Positions 1,731-15,417 of a stretch of 64,000 nt of DNA are shown one piece after another. The notes beneath the pieces are model-generated. The model was not told the DNA's origin. It made no database searches and was given only the letters and a program-made list of their open reading frames with translations. How positions within the stretch are numbered: the stretch's first letter is position 1; each line of letters opens with the position of its first letter. Source of the DNA: Lactobacillus mulieris (GTDB taxonomy: Bacteria; Bacillota; Bacilli; Lactobacillales; Lactobacillaceae); the NCBI RefSeq assembly GCF_007095465.1, contig NZ_SDGL01000009.1, forward strand, positions 28,066 through 92,065, written 5' to 3'. Made by a program: the position numbers and the translations under genes.

Positions 1731-3107
1731 ATGGTATATCAAAAGAAAGATTTAAAAAAAGACATTATTATTACCATTAAGCGCTTAGGTATTAATGGTG
1801 AAGGTATTGGCTATTATAAAAAAAAGATTATTTTTATTCCTGGTGCTTTACCAGATGAAGTAGTCGTAGCCCAAATAATTAAAACACATCCTGGCTACAT
1901 CGAAGGTGAATTAGTTCGAATTAAAGAAAAAAGTCCTAATCGGGTGGCTTTCCCTGATAAAGTTGATCCAGAAATTGGTGGTCTAGAACTAGCTCATTTA
2001 AGTTATGACAAGCAACTTGAATTCAAGAAAGATATTGTCTTAGAATCTCTTAGAAAATATCATCCTCGTGGCTATCAAAAATACAAAGTTAAAAATACTA
2101 TCCCAGCTAAAGAAAATTGGCATTATCGTGCTAAAGCACAATACCAACTCGAATTTAGTAAAGGGAAAACCAAATTGGGCATGTATGCACCAAATTCCCG
2201 TCGTTTAATTGACCTACCGGAAATGCCTACCCAATCTAAAAATACCCAAAAAACAGAACGTTTAATCAAAAAATTAATCGACAAATATCATCTACCTGTT
2301 GCCAATTGGCGCAAGCATTTTGATGGAATTAAAACAATAGTAGTTCGTGAAGCTGTTTCTACTGGAGAAATGCAGGTTACTTTTATTACTATTGGGAAAA
2401 AGATTAATGGTTTGAAAAAACTAGCTCAAGAAGTTATGAAGCTTGATAACGTAGTTTCTGTCTTTCAAAATGAAACTGATTGGAATAATCCGCAAGTTTG
2501 GGGAAATAAGACGGTTAAACTAGCTGGAAAGAATCAAATTATAGAACATATTCTCGATAAAAAATTTGCTTTATCTCCAAGAGCATTTTTCCAACTTAAT
2601 CCAGAACAAACAGAAATTCTTTACAGCGAAGCTATTAAACTGCTTAACTTAACTCCTGATCAAGTTTTAATTGATGCTTACAGTGGCGTTGGGACAATTG
2701 GTATCATTGCCAGTGACTATGTTAAGCAAGTTATTGGTATTGAAAGCATCCCTGAAGCAGTTGAAGATGCAATGCACAATGTTAAATTAAACCATGTCCG
2801 CAATACTGAATATCTACAAGGTAGCGTTGAAAAAATCTTGCCACAACTAAAAAACAGTGGGGTTCCAATCGATGCTTTAATTGTCGATCCACCAAGAACA
2901 GGGTTAGCTAAATCCTTAATTAAGACCATTATGCAAGTTAAACCTGAGAGCTTTGTTTATATTTCATGTAATCCATCTACTTTAGCTCAAGATTTAGTAA
3001 TGTTAAGTGAAGTATATGATGTTCGCGTAATTGAAAATGTCGATATGCTACCACAAACTGCTCGTTGCGAAGCAATCGCTAAATTAGTTTTACGTAAAGA
3101 AAATTAG
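1731..3107 (+). CDS. rlmD: 23S rRNA (uracil-5-)-methyltransferase, RlmD/RlmCD family
   Basis: This enzyme uses S-adenosylmethionine to methylate C5 of a uridine in 23S rRNA. The 458 residues comprise an N-terminal TRAM-type OB fold (IKRLGINGEGIGY), a central domain and a Rossmann methyltransferase domain. SAM motif DAYSGVGTIGI lies near residue 315, the catalytic cysteine is in SCNPSTL near residue 412, and the general-base glutamate is in ARCEAIA near the C-terminus. The cysteines that bind a 4Fe-4S cluster in many homologues (CGGC before QHLSY) are replaced here by IGGLELAHLSY. I infer a cluster-free variant. Which uridine is modified (747, 1939 or both) cannot be read from sequence. Confidence 0.88.
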   Translation: MVYQKKDLKKDIIITIKRLGINGEGIGYYKKKIIFIPGALPDEVVVAQIIKTHPGYIEGELVRIKEKSPNRVAFPDKVDPEIGGLELAHLSYDKQLEFKKDIVLESLRKYHPRGYQKYKVKNTIPAKENWHYRAKAQYQLEFSKGKTKLGMYAPNSRRLIDLPEMPTQSKNTQKTERLIKKLIDKYHLPVANWRKHFDGIKTIVVREAVSTGEMQVTFITIGKKINGLKKLAQEVMKLDNVVSVFQNETDWNNPQVWGNKTVKLAGKNQIIEHILDKKFALSPRAFFQLNPEQTEILYSEAIKLLNLTPDQVLIDAYSGVGTIGIIASDYVKQVIGIESIPEAVEDAMHNVKLNHVRNTEYLQGSVEKILPQLKNSGVPIDALIVDPPRTGLAKSLIKTIMQVKPESFVYISCNPSTLAQDLVMLSEVYDVRVIENVDMLPQTARCEAIAKLVLRKEN

Positions 3108-3113
3108 TTTTAG

Positions 3114-3158
3114 AAAAAAAGACTAGTAATGTAAAATAACATTACTAGTCTTCTTTTT
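3114..3158 (+). terminator. Bidirectional terminator after rlmD
   Basis: GACTAGTAATGT (3121-3132) pairs perfectly with ACATTACTAGTC (3139-3150). It is flanked by an A-run on the left and a T-run on the right, so it can stop transcription from either side. Confidence 0.85.
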
Positions 3159-3162
3159 TGCA

Positions 3163-3208
3163 TTAAAAAACAGGCTACCCTTTTACTCTTCCTGGTAAGT
3201 AGCCTGTT
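3163..3208 (-). terminator. Terminator of the candidate ncRNA (and possibly of the mva operon)
   Basis: On the minus strand, AACAGGCTAC (3199-3208) pairs with GTAGCCTGTT (3169-3178) and is followed by six Ts. It lies 44 bp from the rlmD terminator, so the two are separate structures. Confidence 0.8.
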
Positions 3209-3482
3209 CATCAAATGGATGAGGTAGTATTTCCTCTAGTCACAATCATCAACATGTTTATCAATATATTGGCTGACGCGACCATAATAACATCACTTGT
3301 TCGAGTTTTTGCGAAAAGAACGCAACCTATTTTTAATAATCAAATGGAAAACATACGCGCAGCCAAATCATAAGTCTATTAACTATAACGGCTGACACCT
3401 CTTTTTCAGAGAATCTTCATTCAACTAACAATACAATTCTGGAGATAAAAACCTAAATTTTGTTACTTTCTACCTCTTCCAC
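3165..3482 (-). ncRNA. Candidate structured small RNA, about 318 nt, unrecognised family
   Basis: No open reading frame of useful length lies in this strand. The predicted transcript begins about 7 bp after a consensus promoter and ends at a strong terminator. Just before the terminator, its 3' part (CTACCTCATCC, 3217-3227) pairs 10 of 11 with its 5' end (GGAAGAGGTAG, 3470-3480), closing the molecule. Inside, TTGGCTGCGCG (3356-3366) pairs with CGCG-T-CAGCCAA (3269-3280), 11 pairs with one bulged base. A local TTGCG/CGCAA hairpin (3309-3325) and a CTCT/AGAG hairpin (3398-3412) sit within. A second GTCAGCC copy (about 3390-3396) could compete for the GGCTG strand. I looked for tmRNA, RNase P and T-box hallmarks and saw none; 6S RNA cannot be excluded. 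It may also be the 3' UTR of the mva operon, because no terminator separates it from mvaS. Confidence 0.6.
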
Positions 3483-3488
3483 ACTTCT

Positions 3489-3517
3489 AATATATCATTT
3501 TATGTAACCGCTTGCAA
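3489..3517 (-). promoter_or_regulatory. Promoter with overlapping cre (CcpA) site for the candidate ncRNA
   Basis: On the minus strand, TTGCAA (3512-3517), a 17-bp spacer and TATATT (3489-3494) form a near-consensus sigma-A promoter. TTGCAAGCGGTTACA (3503-3517) fits every fixed position of the cre consensus WTGNAANCGNWNNCW and overlaps the -35 box, the arrangement expected for CcpA repression. The mvaS stop codon is only 4 bp upstream. Confidence 0.7.
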
Positions 3518-3520
3518 GTA

Positions 3521-4678
3521 TTATTTCTTAGAATATTGACGAATATTTTCATTTGTTCCAGCAAAATACCAACCATTTGCATCAGAATTTATTTCTTCAC
3601 TAGCAGCCAAGTCTTTCAAACTATCATTAAATATTTCTTCATATTCTGAAACCGTTAATTTTTTACGATTTTCTAGCAGTTCTTTATGCTTTGCAGGATA
3701 TAATTGTTTTTCGTATCCTTCTACTAAACGACCAGTAAAGAATTCTGCCATTGCACCTGAACCATATGAAAATAGTCCAATTAAACTCCCTGCCTTTGGT
3801 TGATCTACTTCTAATAAACTAAGTAAAGACATGTAAAGTGAAGCTGTATAAATATTACCAACTTCTTTACTATAAGTTGCACTTGCTACAAATTTATCAA
3901 GCAGTCTAGCACATGTTTCAGGTTCTTGACCTTCAATAGCTAATTTAAGAGCTTTTTGTCCCATTTTAGTAAATGGCAAGTGGAACAATAATGCTTCAAA
4001 GTCACTCGTCTTCAAGTTTTGCTTTTGAGTATAATCTTCAAAACAATTCTTGAAGAAATCAAGATAAACATTAGTTGAGTATTTACCATCAACTAAAGCA
4101 CATTTGAAATTGTTAGGGCGCCAAAAATCATCAATATCATCAGAATACATACTAGTTTCACTATCAATTTCTAAGATACTTGGGTCTTTTTTAATAAGTA
4201 AACTAATACTACCAGCACCTTGCGTAACTTCACCAGGTGTTGCTACGCCATAACGCGCAATATCACTACCAATAACAATTGCGGTCTTATCTTCATGTGC
4301 TCTAACATAATCAATTGCTGTCAAAATAGCTGCTGTTAAGCCAAAGCAAGCTTCTTTCAATTCAAAAGTTCTAATATTTTTGGGTAAATTCAAAGCCTTT
4401 TTGACAAATAATGAAGCAGACTTAGATTGATCGACACTTGATTCCGTACCAAATACTAGCAATCCTAACTTTTCAAGATCAATTTCATCAATATATTCAC
4501 TAGTTGCATTGATTGCCATTGATACAGCATCTTGACTTTTATCTGCAACCGCCATTTTATTTTGGCCAATTCCAATTAAAAACTTGCCAGGATCTACATT
4601 TCTTGCTTCAGCTAAATCCACCATATCGACAAATTTATTTGGTGTATAAAAACCTATTTTATCAATACCGACTTTCAT
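3521..4678 (-). CDS. mvaS: Hydroxymethylglutaryl-CoA synthase
   Basis: This enzyme condenses acetyl-CoA with acetoacetyl-CoA to HMG-CoA, the second step of the mevalonate route to isopentenyl diphosphate and undecaprenyl lipids. At 385 residues it has the usual bacterial length. Glu79 (in FGTES), Cys111 (in EACFGLTA) and His233 (in LLFHLPF) fall exactly at the positions of the known catalytic triad of the staphylococcal and enterococcal enzymes. It starts 2 bp after the mvaA stop, with GAGG further upstream inside mvaA. It is the last gene of a thiolase-mvaA-mvaS operon. Confidence 0.97.
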   Translation of the reverse strand: MKVGIDKIGFYTPNKFVDMVDLAEARNVDPGKFLIGIGQNKMAVADKSQDAVSMAINATSEYIDEIDLEKLGLLVFGTESSVDQSKSASLFVKKALNLPKNIRTFELKEACFGLTAAILTAIDYVRAHEDKTAIVIGSDIARYGVATPGEVTQGAGSISLLIKKDPSILEIDSETSMYSDDIDDFWRPNNFKCALVDGKYSTNVYLDFFKNCFEDYTQKQNLKTSDFEALLFHLPFTKMGQKALKLAIEGQEPETCARLLDKFVASATYSKEVGNIYTASLYMSLLSLLEVDQPKAGSLIGLFSYGSGAMAEFFTGRLVEGYEKQLYPAKHKELLENRKKLTVSEYEEIFNDSLKDLAASEEINSDANGWYFAGTNENIRQYSKK

Positions 4679-4680
4679 TC

Positions 4681-5907
4681 TTAACTATTTTCCTCTCTAA
4701 TCTTTTGTAAAAAATTCTTTGCATCAGTTTCACCATAGCGTTTTTGCTCTTGCATCAACTGCTTTACTGCTTTTTTTTCATTATCAGTAGCAGATAAATT
4801 TTTCAAAACATTGCGAATTTGCAAATTCATATGGCCCTTTTGAATACCAACAGTTGAAATAGCAAGTAATGCTGCCAGATTATTCGCTAATCCAACAGTT
4901 GCAATAAGTTCAGCTAGTTCACTGACGCTAACTTGCCCCAAAATATTATATGCTACTTGTACATCACTACGTGACTTAATGGAGCCCCCAACCACGCCAA
5001 TAGCAAGAGGCAAGCTTATCTCACCAACTAGCTTACCATCTTCAATCTGCCAGCTGCTCAAGCTTTGATATGTACCTGATAGACTGGCTGCCTGATGACA
5101 AGCCGCCTCTACTGCTCGAAAATCATTTCCTGTTGCAAGTAAAATTGCATCTACACCATTCATAATTCCCTTATTGTTAGTAACAGCACGATAAGAATCT
5201 TGCTTACCAATTTTGCTAAGTAAGGCAACTTTTTGAGCAATTTCTTCTCCAATTTTTTTATCTTGGGTTTTAGTTAAGCTTGCAAAAGCTAAAGATACTT
5301 TAGCGTGAGTAAATTGACTAGGATAATTAGATAAAATTGCATATAATTTTTCAACAGCAAATTCTTGACTAATTTTTTGTCCCAAAAATTCTAGGATTGC
5401 ATTAGTTCGATTAGCCCCCATGCTTTCAGCAGGATCAACCAGAACTCGTAAAAAAAGCAAATTATCTTTTAATTCAGAGACAATTTTTTTGACACCGCCA
5501 CCATGCTTAACCAAAGAAGCAAATTCTTGGTTGGCAGCATTTAAATAACTAAGCTCTTTACTTTTAAAGCTTGCTAATGAGAATTTCTCTACTTTGAAAA
5601 CTAATTGTCCCCAAATTCCTGTCCGCTCACTTTTGGCAATAGCACCACCATTTTGATTAAAGATATTTAACCCATGGTTGGCTGCTGCAACAACTGACGC
5701 TTCTTCAGTTGCCATTGGAATTTGAAAGCTTTTGCCATTAACAACTGCTACTTGCAGAATTGATAATGGTAAGGTCAACTTACCTATTACATTTTCACTA
5801 AGTGTATCTAATTCTGCTAACAAGTCATAATCAACTTTATTAAGCTTAATTCCTTTCTGAAGTAAGCTTTCTCGTCGCTCACTTGCAGACAACTGATAAA
5901 ATTTCAC
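4681..5907 (-). CDS. mvaA: Hydroxymethylglutaryl-CoA reductase, class II
   Basis: This enzyme reduces HMG-CoA to mevalonate with NAD(P)H. The 408 residues carry the substrate-binding ENVIGKLTLPLSI segment, a variant of the dinucleotide-binding DAMGAN motif (here ESMGANRTN) and the C-terminal catalytic histidine in GHMNLQIRN. The first codon is GTG at 5907, 2 bp after the thiolase stop, with only a weak Shine-Dalgarno sequence, so translation is probably coupled to the upstream gene. It is the middle gene of the mevalonate operon. Confidence 0.96.
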   Translation of the reverse strand: MKFYQLSASERRESLLQKGIKLNKVDYDLLAELDTLSENVIGKLTLPLSILQVAVVNGKSFQIPMATEEASVVAAANHGLNIFNQNGGAIAKSERTGIWGQLVFKVEKFSLASFKSKELSYLNAANQEFASLVKHGGGVKKIVSELKDNLLFLRVLVDPAESMGANRTNAILEFLGQKISQEFAVEKLYAILSNYPSQFTHAKVSLAFASLTKTQDKKIGEEIAQKVALLSKIGKQDSYRAVTNNKGIMNGVDAILLATGNDFRAVEAACHQAASLSGTYQSLSSWQIEDGKLVGEISLPLAIGVVGGSIKSRSDVQVAYNILGQVSVSELAELIATVGLANNLAALLAISTVGIQKGHMNLQIRNVLKNLSATDNEKKAVKQLMQEQKRYGETDAKNFLQKIREENS

Positions 5908-5909
5908 CT

Positions 5910-7055
5910 TTATTTCACCCGCTCGATTTCAAAAGCAATTGCTAACCCGCCACCAATGCACAAACTAGCAATTCCTCTTTCTTTATTTTCACTAATTAAA
6001 GAATGAGCTAAAGTACCTAAAATTCTCGCACCACTTGCTCCTAAAGGATGCCCTAAAGCCAAAGCACCACCATGGATATTAACCTTGTTATGATCTAAAT
6101 GCAATTCTTTTTCAACAGCTAAACTAGTAGCTGCAAAAGCCTCATTAATTTCAAATAAATCAATATCAGCAAGTTTTTGTCCAGTTTCTTGGAGTAATTT
6201 TTCAATGGCTACTTTTGGACCAAAGCCCATTATTTGTGGATCAAGTCCTACTTCTGCATAGGCACTTAACTTAGCAAGAGGTTTAAGGTTTAATTCCTTA
6301 ACTTTATCCTCAGTAGCTAAAATTAACATACTTGCACCATCAGATAATGAAGATGAATTACCTGCTGTTGCAACACCATCTGCTTTAAAAACGGTTTTTA
6401 AACTAGCTAATTTTTCAACACTAGAGTCAGGACGTACATTTTCGTCATAGCTTAAATCAACTACTGGGCTAATTTCTTGGTCAAAGAAGCCGTGCTCTTG
6501 AGCTATAGCTGCTTTTTTATGTGAATCTACACTAAACTCATCAGCTTGTTGACGACTAATACCATATTTAATAGCTACATTCTCACAAGTATTACCCATT
6601 AACTTATTACTAAAAGCATCAGTTAATCCATCATAAAGCATACTATCAATAAAGTGGGGATTATCTTTTTCAGACTTTTTAGCTAAGAGTGGAGCATTGG
6701 TCATACTTTCACTACCACCAACCGCTACTAATTTTAAATCACCAATGAGCATTTGCGCTTGAGCTAACCGAACTGCTTTAAGTGATGAACCACAAACTTC
6801 ATTAATCGTTGTGGCAACACTTTCATTTTTCATACCACTATTAATAGCAACTTGGCGAGCCATGTTTTGTCCAAGTCCTGCACTTAAGACATTTCCCATA
6901 AACAAGGCATCTAACTCATTAGAACGCAAATTAGCAGCCATTAAGGCGTCTTTAAGGGCAAATGTCCCTAATTCTACGGCATTAAAAGCTGCTAATTGTC
7001 CACGGTAGCGGCCAAAAGGTGTTCTTTTAGCCGCTACAATATAAATGTTTTGCAT
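5910..7055 (-). CDS. Acetyl-CoA C-acetyltransferase (thiolase)
   Basis: This thiolase joins two acetyl-CoA to acetoacetyl-CoA, the entry step of the mevalonate pathway. The 381-residue protein shows the complete thiolase signature set: acylated Cys88 in NEVCGSSL, NEAFAATS, the histidine in GGALALGHPLGASGAR and the second cysteine in CIGGGLA. The ATG at 7055 follows AGAGG at good spacing; an ATG 15 bp upstream has no RBS. It lies first in the operon with mvaA and mvaS, which identifies it as the biosynthetic rather than a degradative thiolase. The hydrolase gene 41 bp upstream may be on the same transcript. Confidence 0.95.
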   Translation of the reverse strand: MQNIYIVAAKRTPFGRYRGQLAAFNAVELGTFALKDALMAANLRSNELDALFMGNVLSAGLGQNMARQVAINSGMKNESVATTINEVCGSSLKAVRLAQAQMLIGDLKLVAVGGSESMTNAPLLAKKSEKDNPHFIDSMLYDGLTDAFSNKLMGNTCENVAIKYGISRQQADEFSVDSHKKAAIAQEHGFFDQEISPVVDLSYDENVRPDSSVEKLASLKTVFKADGVATAGNSSSLSDGASMLILATEDKVKELNLKPLAKLSAYAEVGLDPQIMGFGPKVAIEKLLQETGQKLADIDLFEINEAFAATSLAVEKELHLDHNKVNIHGGALALGHPLGASGARILGTLAHSLISENKERGIASLCIGGGLAIAFEIERVK

Positions 7056-7096
7056 CAAATTTCCTCTCATTTCTCCAAAATCTGATGCTAATTTTA

Positions 7097-8050
7097 CTAT
7101 TTGATGTACTTATTTAAAAATGCTTTGATTTTAGCTTTATATTCTTGCGGATGTGTTGCAAATGACTTAGCATGACTGGCCCCTGGAACTACCCATAGCT
7201 GCTTAGGGCCGTTGCTTGCTCGATAATTTTTATAAACCATTTCAGTTGGTACAAAATTATCTTTAGCTCCATGAATAAACATCATTGGCTTAGTATTTTT
7301 CTTGAGCATCTTGATACTATCTGCATCCCCCAAGAAATAACCTGCTCTTAAACGAGTTATTCCACTCAACACTTCTACTAATGGGAAACGTGGAAAGGTT
7401 GGCATATTATACAAAGCTTGAGCTTCATGCTCTATCTCATTCTTAGCATTAGTATATCCGCAATCTTCAATAAAAGCCTTAACCTGACTAGGCAACTTCA
7501 AACCACTAGTCATCATCGTTGTAGCTCCACCCATTGAAACCCCAAAGATTACAATCTCCTGCTTCGGATTATCTTTAAGTAATTTTTGAGTCCACTTTTT
7601 CACATCATCTTTTTCCATCCAACCATATCCAACATAATTCCCTTGACTTTGACCATGTCCACGTGCATCTGGCAACAAGACATTGTAGCCCAATGAATGA
7701 AATAATGCGGCATATTCACCCATTCCATCTTTGTTATTCATATAGCCATGCAAAATGATTACAGTTTTTTGGGAATTGCCATTTTTGATATAATTAGCAT
7801 CGAGTCGCAACTTATTATCACTACTCATCATATAAAGATGCTTCTTAGTAGCTTTTTTATACCAAAGTTTTTCCTGATACAAAGGATCTGACTTAGTCAG
7901 AGGTTTACTACTGCTTAAAAATGTTTTGTGTCCTGGAACTACTGCTACATTATAAAAGTACATTCCTGCTCCTAAAAAAGCTAAAACTATAAAAGCAAAA
8001 ATGCCACCAAGCCATTTTAATCGCTTAGACTTCTTCGCGTTCTTTTCCAT
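7097..8050 (-). CDS. Membrane-anchored alpha/beta hydrolase
   Basis: This 317-residue protein has a basic N-terminus (KNAKKSKRLKW) and one hydrophobic segment (about residues 14-36), so the catalytic domain is probably outside the membrane. The serine hydrolase motifs are clear: HGYMNNKDG (oxyanion region), DARGHGQS, nucleophile elbow GVSMGG, acid loop HGAKDNFVP and the catalytic histidine in GASHAKS. The substrate is unknown; relatives are annotated as BAAT/acyl-CoA thioester hydrolase-like esterases. Of the two adjacent ATGs (8050, 8053) the inner one has better spacing to GGTGGAG. No terminator separates it from the thiolase gene. Confidence 0.85.
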   Translation of the reverse strand: MEKNAKKSKRLKWLGGIFAFIVLAFLGAGMYFYNVAVVPGHKTFLSSSKPLTKSDPLYQEKLWYKKATKKHLYMMSSDNKLRLDANYIKNGNSQKTVIILHGYMNNKDGMGEYAALFHSLGYNVLLPDARGHGQSQGNYVGYGWMEKDDVKKWTQKLLKDNPKQEIVIFGVSMGGATTMMTSGLKLPSQVKAFIEDCGYTNAKNEIEHEAQALYNMPTFPRFPLVEVLSGITRLRAGYFLGDADSIKMLKKNTKPMMFIHGAKDNFVPTEMVYKNYRASNGPKQLWVVPGASHAKSFATHPQEYKAKIKAFLNKYIK

Positions 8051-8097
8051 CATGTGCTCCACCGTCTTTCATATACTATTCAAAATAAGCTTTTAAC

Positions 8098-15343: not shown

Positions 15344-15417
15344 TGACCACGGCCAGAATCGAACTGGCGACCTACTGTTTAGGAGACAGTGGCTCTATCC
15401 TACTGAGCTACGTGGCC
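15344..15417 (-). tRNA. tRNA-Arg (anticodon CCU)
   Basis: The minus strand folds into a full cloverleaf: acceptor GGCCACG/CGTGGTC, D-arm GCTC/GAGC, anticodon arm ACTGT-CTCCTAA-ACAGT and T-arm GCCAG-TTCGATT-CTGGC. The anticodon loop CTCCTAA gives CCU, reading the rare arginine codon AGG. The 3' CCA is not encoded after the discriminator A and must be added after transcription. Confidence 0.95.

Follow-up and report, generated by a model that had tools for sequence, protein, structure and literature searches.

A candidate CcpA-controlled noncoding RNA with a conserved fold beside rlmD in Lactobacillus

In the 64,000-nucleotide stretch of Lactobacillus mulieris DNA analysed here (the window), the convergent genes rlmD and mvaS are separated by a gap that holds the gene for a predicted noncoding RNA, read in the same direction as mvaS (Table 1). 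The next minus-strand genes past mvaS are mvaA and a thiolase gene, both recognised by eye, followed by a gene for an alpha/beta hydrolase (Pfam). On the other side, rlmD ends in a strong terminator with a 14-pair stem (3119-3152) that stands back to back with the terminator of the RNA. No terminator was seen between mvaS and the promoter of the RNA, and read-through from mvaS is possible. The promoter, the cre site (the operator of CcpA) on its -35 box and the terminator that a first-pass annotation had placed in this gap are all present.

Table 1. Genes, signals and predicted RNA elements in and around the rlmD-mvaS gap (window coordinates)
Feature	Position	Strand	Remarks
rlmD	1731..3107	+	23S rRNA uracil-C5 methyltransferase (NCBIfam name); convergent neighbour, main synteny marker
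mvaS	3521..4678	-	HMG-CoA synthase (NCBIfam name); gene upstream of the RNA in the window, stop codon ending at 3521
Promoter TTGCAA-17-TATATT	3489..3517	-	-35 TTGCAA 3517-3512, spacer 17, TG-extended -10 TATATT 3494-3489
cre (CcpA operator) TTGCAAGCGGTTACA	3503..3517	-	full match to WTGNAANCGNWNNCW; covers the -35 box
Predicted noncoding RNA	3165..3482	-	roughly 318 nt including the terminator; both ends predicted from the promoter and terminator positions
RNA core	3482-3215	-	covariance-model match, 120.9 bits, E 6e-37
P1 5' strand GUGGAAGAGGUAG	3470..3482	-	pairs with 3227-3215
Strand GGUUUUUAUCUCC	3441..3453	-	its final 12 letters form the near-invariant strand that resembles an anti-Shine-Dalgarno sequence
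P2 5' strand AGUUGAAUG	3418..3426	-	9/9 pairs with CAUUUGAUU 3346-3338; mean pair probability 0.61
P3 hairpin UCUCU...AGAGG	3398..3412	-	pair probability 0.73
P4 hairpin	3360..3394	-	CAGCC 3394-3390 with GGCUG 3364-3360; register in the window read by eye
P5 hairpin UUGCG...CGCAA	3309..3325	-	probability 0.75; not in the single-sequence minimum-energy fold
Conserved CUCGAACAAGUGAUGUU	3305-3289	-	directly after P5
P6	3238..3283	-	GGUCGCG 3283-3277 with UGUGACU 3244-3238; encloses the P7 region; probability 0.92
Palt 3' strand CGCGUCAGCC	3271..3280	-	could pair with GGCUGCGCG 3364-3356, competing with P4 and P6
P1 3' strand CUACCUCAUCCAU	3215..3227	-	pairs with 3482-3470
Intrinsic terminator AACAGGCUAC...GUAGCCUGUU, then U run	3165..3208	-	hairpin 3208-3169 and T run

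Among the 12 mvaS loci found, that of the window is closest to those of Lactobacillus jensenii and L. psittaci (92% identity), and BLASTN with a 361-nt query recovered the RNA region of both (94% for the L. jensenii copy, 81% for the L. psittaci copy). The same search matched eight of nine genomes at E<=0.1 and 44 of the 75 genomes on the genus list at E<=0.01, some of the matches being weak and short. A covariance model, R1, with 288 positions and 53 pairs, was built from 11 relatives with the window left out; it matches 42 of the 75 Lactobacillus genomes, 38 of them at E<1e-10. Applied to 301 genomes of the family, R1 found 20, of which 13 belong to the genus list and six are weak; the last is G138 (locus L089, E 3e-11), a genome off that list. 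Of 198 genomes of the order it matched 11, nine of them from the genus list and two only weakly (G456 and G573). The weak matches outside the genus, near E 1e-3, were set aside as chance. A strict sequence pattern, whose control matched nowhere, occurs in G138 and in 12 genomes of the genus list, 13 of the 397 family genomes in all; an initial pattern with too narrow a gap, which had found 8 of 75 genomes, was discarded. Because the searches are lossy, the other 33 genomes on the genus list should not be taken to lack the RNA; the divergent copy in G053 (L046) escaped the model and was identified by inspection. The RNA gene is probably ancestral to much of the genus Lactobacillus. No match was found in either the phage or the plasmid collection, and an origin from such elements was discarded. 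One record with an mvaS gene 61% identical to that of the window, L006 (JAEDAG010000002.1), is titled Faecalicatena absiana; its genome, G006, is on the genus list and carries the RNA beside an rlmD-like gene (L017, L076), and the record is probably misnamed.

The comparisons below draw on 40 copies, i.e. the window and 39 loci; outside this set are L046, missed by the model search, and the copies in G061, G071, G050 and G051, which have a genome match and no model locus. A second set, A1, consists of the window and 29 loci, all picked by loose matches to the 5' strand and the conserved strand; from L013-L047 it omits L020-L024 (weak or repeated matches) and L046 (without the 5' anchor). The length of the RNA core is 268 nt in the window and 180-328 nt in the other 39 copies. 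In 38 of the 40, rlmD faces the RNA, as judged for 37 from an RlmD-like C-terminal end and for L071 from other sequence of its genome; in the two remaining copies, L063 and L089, the RNA is retained and no neighbouring rlmD was seen. The gene upstream has an mvaS-like end in 13 copies, a hydrolase-like end in 25 (23 from the neighbour reading, L056 and L062 from sequence) and neither in two (L063 and L069). The RNA therefore goes with rlmD and not with mvaS. A hidden protein, already dismissed in the first-pass annotation because stops are frequent, is rejected on the 40 copies: the sole frame of at least 50 aa inside the gap is one of 52 aa on the plus strand (3215-3373), and neither plus-strand frames of at least 20 aa nor sense frames of at least 15 aa have a start common to more than 12 of the copies.

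The cre site was scored against WTGNAANCGNWNNCW, which we take to be the consensus. It is a full match in 35 of the 40 copies, has one mismatch in three (L073, L080, L081) and two mismatches in L090, and has no match at all in L091. The match stays full even where letters have changed (compare TTGCAAGCGGTTACA with TGTATTCGCTTACAT), and this survival of the operator through sequence change is the main evidence for the predicted control by CcpA. The divergent copies L090 (1501-1680; G009, L. rodentium) and L091 (1501-1683; G047) keep the RNA and not the promoter cre, and provide a natural comparison for the proposed role of CcpA. The region holds 5 promoter-like sites against 4.6 in shuffles, no more than chance would give; the promoter is nonetheless credible because it is conserved in the aligned upstream stretches of the 40 copies.

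The minus-strand RNA of the window has a folding energy of -85.5 kcal/mol (z -3.87), and none of 100 shuffles was as stable, although the plus strand is equally stable for its composition (z -4.13). Eight helices are proposed for the consensus: P1 joins the ends, P2 encloses P3 and P4, P5 follows, P6 encloses P7, and P8 comes last. Closure of the 5' and 3' ends, first put at 10 of 11 pairs, now stands at 12 of 13 pairs with one A.A mismatch and a mean pair probability of 0.95, and the inner helices of that earlier proposal are also present in the window. At the P2 position other copies have AUUGGA and UCCAAU.

Compensatory changes argue for this fold. In an alignment fitted to the model, with 18 copies drawn from the 40 and the window left out, two-sided changes occur at 22 of the 53 pairs, compared to 6.2 in shuffles (0 of 500 reaching 22) and 3-7 when the partners are slid; 95.4% of cells are paired, compared to 37-48% with slid partners, and every helix has at least one two-sided pair. 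P1 is mostly invariant in this alignment, with two-sided change at 1 of 12 pairs. When all 44 matches are counted, including four antisense self-matches of delbrueckii-type copies, the number of two-sided pairs rises to 38, against 18.2 in shuffles and 12-21 with slid partners. These antisense rows, which were kept out of the 18-copy and reading-frame counts and of the 40-copy scoring of the competing helix Palt described below, also entered a comparison of every column of the fitted alignment with every other, in which P5, P4, P6, P2 and P8 ranked first. A structure-free MAFFT alignment of 30 sequences gave 14 two-sided pairs, compared to 7.0 in shuffles (0 of 500); the slid control was not beaten on pairs or cells, since slid partners reach 9-13 pairs (13 with a slide of 2 columns) and up to 28 cells versus 27. 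In the same alignment, pairing stood at 89.0% versus 38-44% with slid partners and the covariation score at 0.126 versus at most 0.049. Among the 11 close relatives no excess of covariation was found (2 versus 1.8). The stretches GUUUUUAUCUCC and ACAAGUGA are conserved outside the helices. What sequence comparison establishes, then, is a conserved gene with a predicted promoter, a cre site and a supported fold. Of the outcomes that the first-pass annotation had named as refuting, neither a lack of conservation and compensatory changes nor, at threshold in the Rfam scans, a hit to a known family was encountered.

Two further helices could compete with this fold. The first, P0, would pair GAGGUAGAAA (3476-3467, within the 5' region of P1) with UUUUUAUCUC (3451-3442) and excludes P1. 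In equilibrium folding of the 40 copies, P0 averages 8.4 pairs in the 5' fragment and 0.55 in the full-length RNA, and the average unpaired probability of the AUCUCC letters rises from 0.12 in the fragment to 0.59 for the complete RNA, an increase seen in 40 of 40 copies. As the RNA of the window is lengthened, P0 weakens at 230 nt, returns, and yields to P1 at about 262 nt. Against two controls with permuted strands, on average 38 and 21 of 300 were as good as P0, and 10 of the 40 copies beat both controls at 15/300. P0 is therefore suggestive only, permuted strands pairing as well in a fair share of cases, and we dropped it as a proven helix.

The second, Palt, joins the 3' strand of P4 and the letters following it to the 5' strand of P6. 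It corresponds to the earlier remark that a duplicated GTCAGCC (3396-3390 and 3277-3271) could pair with a single GGCTG strand (3364-3360) to give two states; the repeats and the strand are present, and the two states receive modest support from alignments and a Palt probability of 0.00 in the window's own pseudoknot-free ensemble. Since Palt crosses P2, it would be a pseudoknot or belong to another state. It could be scored in 27 of the 40 copies, the other 13 having too few letters in one stretch (L079 probably through the alignment), and outperforms shuffles in 21 of these 27 (no more than 10 of 200 shuffles equalling it), the exceptions being L062, L068, L071, L073, L075 and L089. In an alignment not fitted to Palt, there are 3 two-sided pairs versus 1.0 in shuffles (23 of 500) and 4 cells versus 1.0 (4 of 500), and the covariation score is reached in 2 of 500; with the 44 matches, four of them antisense, the counts are 5 pairs versus 2.8 (26 of 500) and 11 cells versus 4.7 (0 of 500). 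Slid versions have as many two-sided pairs (up to 4, or up to 5 with the 44 matches) but pair in 19-55% of cells versus 84-87%. In the shorter copies L070, L071 and L080-L088 (cores of 187-217 nt), the strands of P4 and Palt were not found in the alignment, so a P4/Palt switch would not be universal. A genus-wide bistable switch under CcpA, exchanging P0 for P1 and P4 with P6 for Palt and withholding the strand until the RNA is complete or a partner binds, is a speculative model that we consider unlikely; the zero probability of Palt in the window ensemble and the slid controls lower its odds. If true, it would give carbon control in Lactobacillus a large branch that acts after transcription.

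The first-pass annotation knew of no family that fits, and the Rfam 15 scans agree. In the whole window the gathering score is reached only by a tRNA (15344-15417); around the interval there are 25 sub-threshold matches, the best being sau-5971 at 30.9 bits versus 90, and ten relatives gave four sub-threshold matches and none at threshold. Lacto-rpoB (RF01709) is irrelevant here. A short 23S-methyl RNA motif occurs upstream of rRNA methyltransferase genes in Lactobacillales, but the present RNA is convergent with rlmD and the Rfam scans gave no match to that motif. The 6S model RF00013 matched neither the interval nor the ten relatives; it may miss the 6S RNA of this genus, because it also matched nothing in 16 of 16 Lactobacillus genomes. 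According to the passages on 6S RNA of lactic acid bacteria in PMC8414754, roughly one species in three has a cre overlapping the -35 region, and the RNA is 160-200 nt long (210 in L. delbrueckii), rod-shaped and usually flanked by rarA and uspA. The present RNA is likewise predicted to be noncoding and has a cre on its -35 box, but differs from that description in being mostly longer and, in its predicted fold, branched (PMC8414754). Its neighbours are rlmD and either mvaS or a hydrolase gene instead of rarA and uspA, and in the predicted consensus a P2 domain, P5, a P6 domain and P8 lie within P1 in place of a rod with a large central bulge.

Two CcpA-repressed RNAs are closer in kind. ArgX of Lactococcus lactis, as portrayed in the relevant sections of PMC6586332, immediately follows the protein gene argR, is transcribed from a separate promoter that carries a predicted cre, is conserved across strains of L. 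lactis, increases 3.9-fold without ccpA and lowers arc mRNA. The present RNA also immediately follows a protein gene and has a promoter and predicted cre of its own, but is set apart, by description and not by sequence, through its place beside rlmD, its genus-wide distribution and its multi-helix fold (PMC6586332). RsaI of Staphylococcus aureus, in the account of PMC9266662, is derepressed on glucose shortage and pairs with Shine-Dalgarno sequences; its table value of 111, taken as length in nt, contrasts with our core lengths, the sequences being compared through the Rfam scans only. Two features expected of such trans-acting RNAs, a cre overlapping the promoter and the absence of a coded protein, are both found here, the former as a full match in 35 of 40 copies and the latter in the 40 copies. 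A literature search on Lactobacillus small or noncoding RNA, CcpA or cre, and RNA-seq, at the level of titles and abstracts and mostly of open papers, found no such RNA, with an unnamed entry in an RNA-seq table being possible, and little on Lactobacillus regulatory RNAs beyond 6S. The RNA thus appears to be a new family within a known kind, the CcpA-controlled noncoding RNAs, whose predicted fold and size are unlike those of the closest examples as these are described.

The near-invariant strand GUUUUUAUCUCC is present in all 30 rows of A1, rows that had been preselected by a loose match to it, and 36 of the 75 genomes have an exact copy at the expected distance behind GAGGTA; L089, L090, L091 and L046 have variants. 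Of the weak matches outside the genus, L092-L097, two (L094 and L095) carry this strand with no more than one mismatch, and GTGGAAGAGGTA was not seen ahead of it in either. The UCUCC of GUUUUUAUCUCC is complementary to Shine-Dalgarno letters. Tests for mRNA targets, which used predicted starts of one genome and a fifth of another and ignored mRNA structure, were negative. Of the 64 exact complements of the 12-mer in the 75 genomes, 38 are in the RNA itself and 26 elsewhere, versus 35 for the reversed control. At the 1764 predicted start regions of one genome, 170 duplexes reach -14 kcal/mol, versus an average of 214.8 for shuffled strings that keep UCUCC, so the strand behaves like any UCUCC string; fully shuffled strings average 99.3, and 2 of 40 reach 170. 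Over 236 ortholog pairs rho was 0.23 versus 0.28 in controls of the kind that keep UCUCC, and 4 pairs were low in both versus 3.6. When the contexts of exact complements were inspected (all of G011, the window, the first 0.4 Mb of G029 and eight loci), two lay near starts and the rest did not: one at the start of a gene presumably ybaB-like (L107), the other before the start codon of a short frame (L119). In five other loci (L117, L123, L126, L128, L129) the 12-mer GGAGATAAAAAC lies in one common longer context (GGCTGGTTTCGGGGAGATAAAAACAGT), which is unrelated to the RNA.

We favour, with a probability of roughly 0.55, a CcpA-repressed regulatory noncoding RNA that is made when the preferred sugar runs out and that exposes the anti-Shine-Dalgarno-like strand. 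We infer that CcpA on the cre would block transcription while a preferred sugar is present and that the RNA would be transcribed once CcpA leaves, on a poor carbon source or in stationary phase. P1 would then join the 5' and 3' ends, and the RNA would fold into a multi-helix body presenting GUUUUUAUCUCC, whose UCUCC may act in trans by pairing with the Shine-Dalgarno sequences of target mRNAs or may bind a protein. As long as the 3' half has not been transcribed, the 5' strand could pair with GUUUUUAUCUCC as P0, and exposure would come only once the RNA is complete. Given the negative target tests, the antisense step is a mechanism by analogy with RsaI (PMC9266662) and ArgX (PMC6586332) as these sources portray them.

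The same negative tests, together with conserved stretches that lie outside the helices of a multi-helix body (GUUUUUAUCUCC, ACAAGUGA), would also suit an RNA that pairs with no mRNA and uses its body and conserved strands to bind or sequester a protein, in the way that 6S RNA binds RNA polymerase and CsrB binds CsrA. This reading is doubtful but deserves serious weight; the consensus fold differs from the 6S rod. It is improbable that the element simply belongs to the upstream mRNA (that of mvaS in the window), as a conserved 3' UTR or a processed 3' end that serves mRNA stability and has no independent life. In many copies the upstream stop codon lies about 40 nt before the RNA start, and read-through is likely because such a gap leaves a terminator no room, but the upstream gene varies among the 40 copies as given above while the promoter with its cre is kept. 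A 3' UTR of the mevalonate operon, the fallback offered in the first-pass annotation, is rejected as the whole explanation, since the upstream gene differs between species and is hydrolase-like, not mvaS, in 25 of 40.

Action on the mRNA of the convergent gene rlmD, in cis or as an antisense element, would explain why rlmD is the neighbour in 38 of 40 copies, but the rlmD terminator of the window precedes the 3' end of the RNA, and L063 and L089 keep the RNA with no adjacent rlmD seen; we regard this as very improbable. That the gap is a stable-looking spacer with an accidental cre is scarcely credible: the chance-level promoter scan of the single sequence and the good folding of both strands would fit, but genus-wide homologues with a retained cre and covariation do not.

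The favoured CcpA-repressed RNA would have a likely inducer (CcpA derepression), a defined position (downstream of mvaS or a hydrolase gene and convergent with rlmD) and a fold backed by compensatory changes, and through it post-transcriptional carbon control becomes testable in Lactobacillus, a genus of vaginal, gut and dairy species. As to the locus itself, thiolase, mvaA and mvaS (3521-8062) lie between the hydrolase gene and the RNA in the window, and in 25 of the 40 copies the RNA comes immediately after a hydrolase-like gene. This arrangement suggests that the mevalonate genes may be a later insertion between hydrolase gene and RNA in some genomes.
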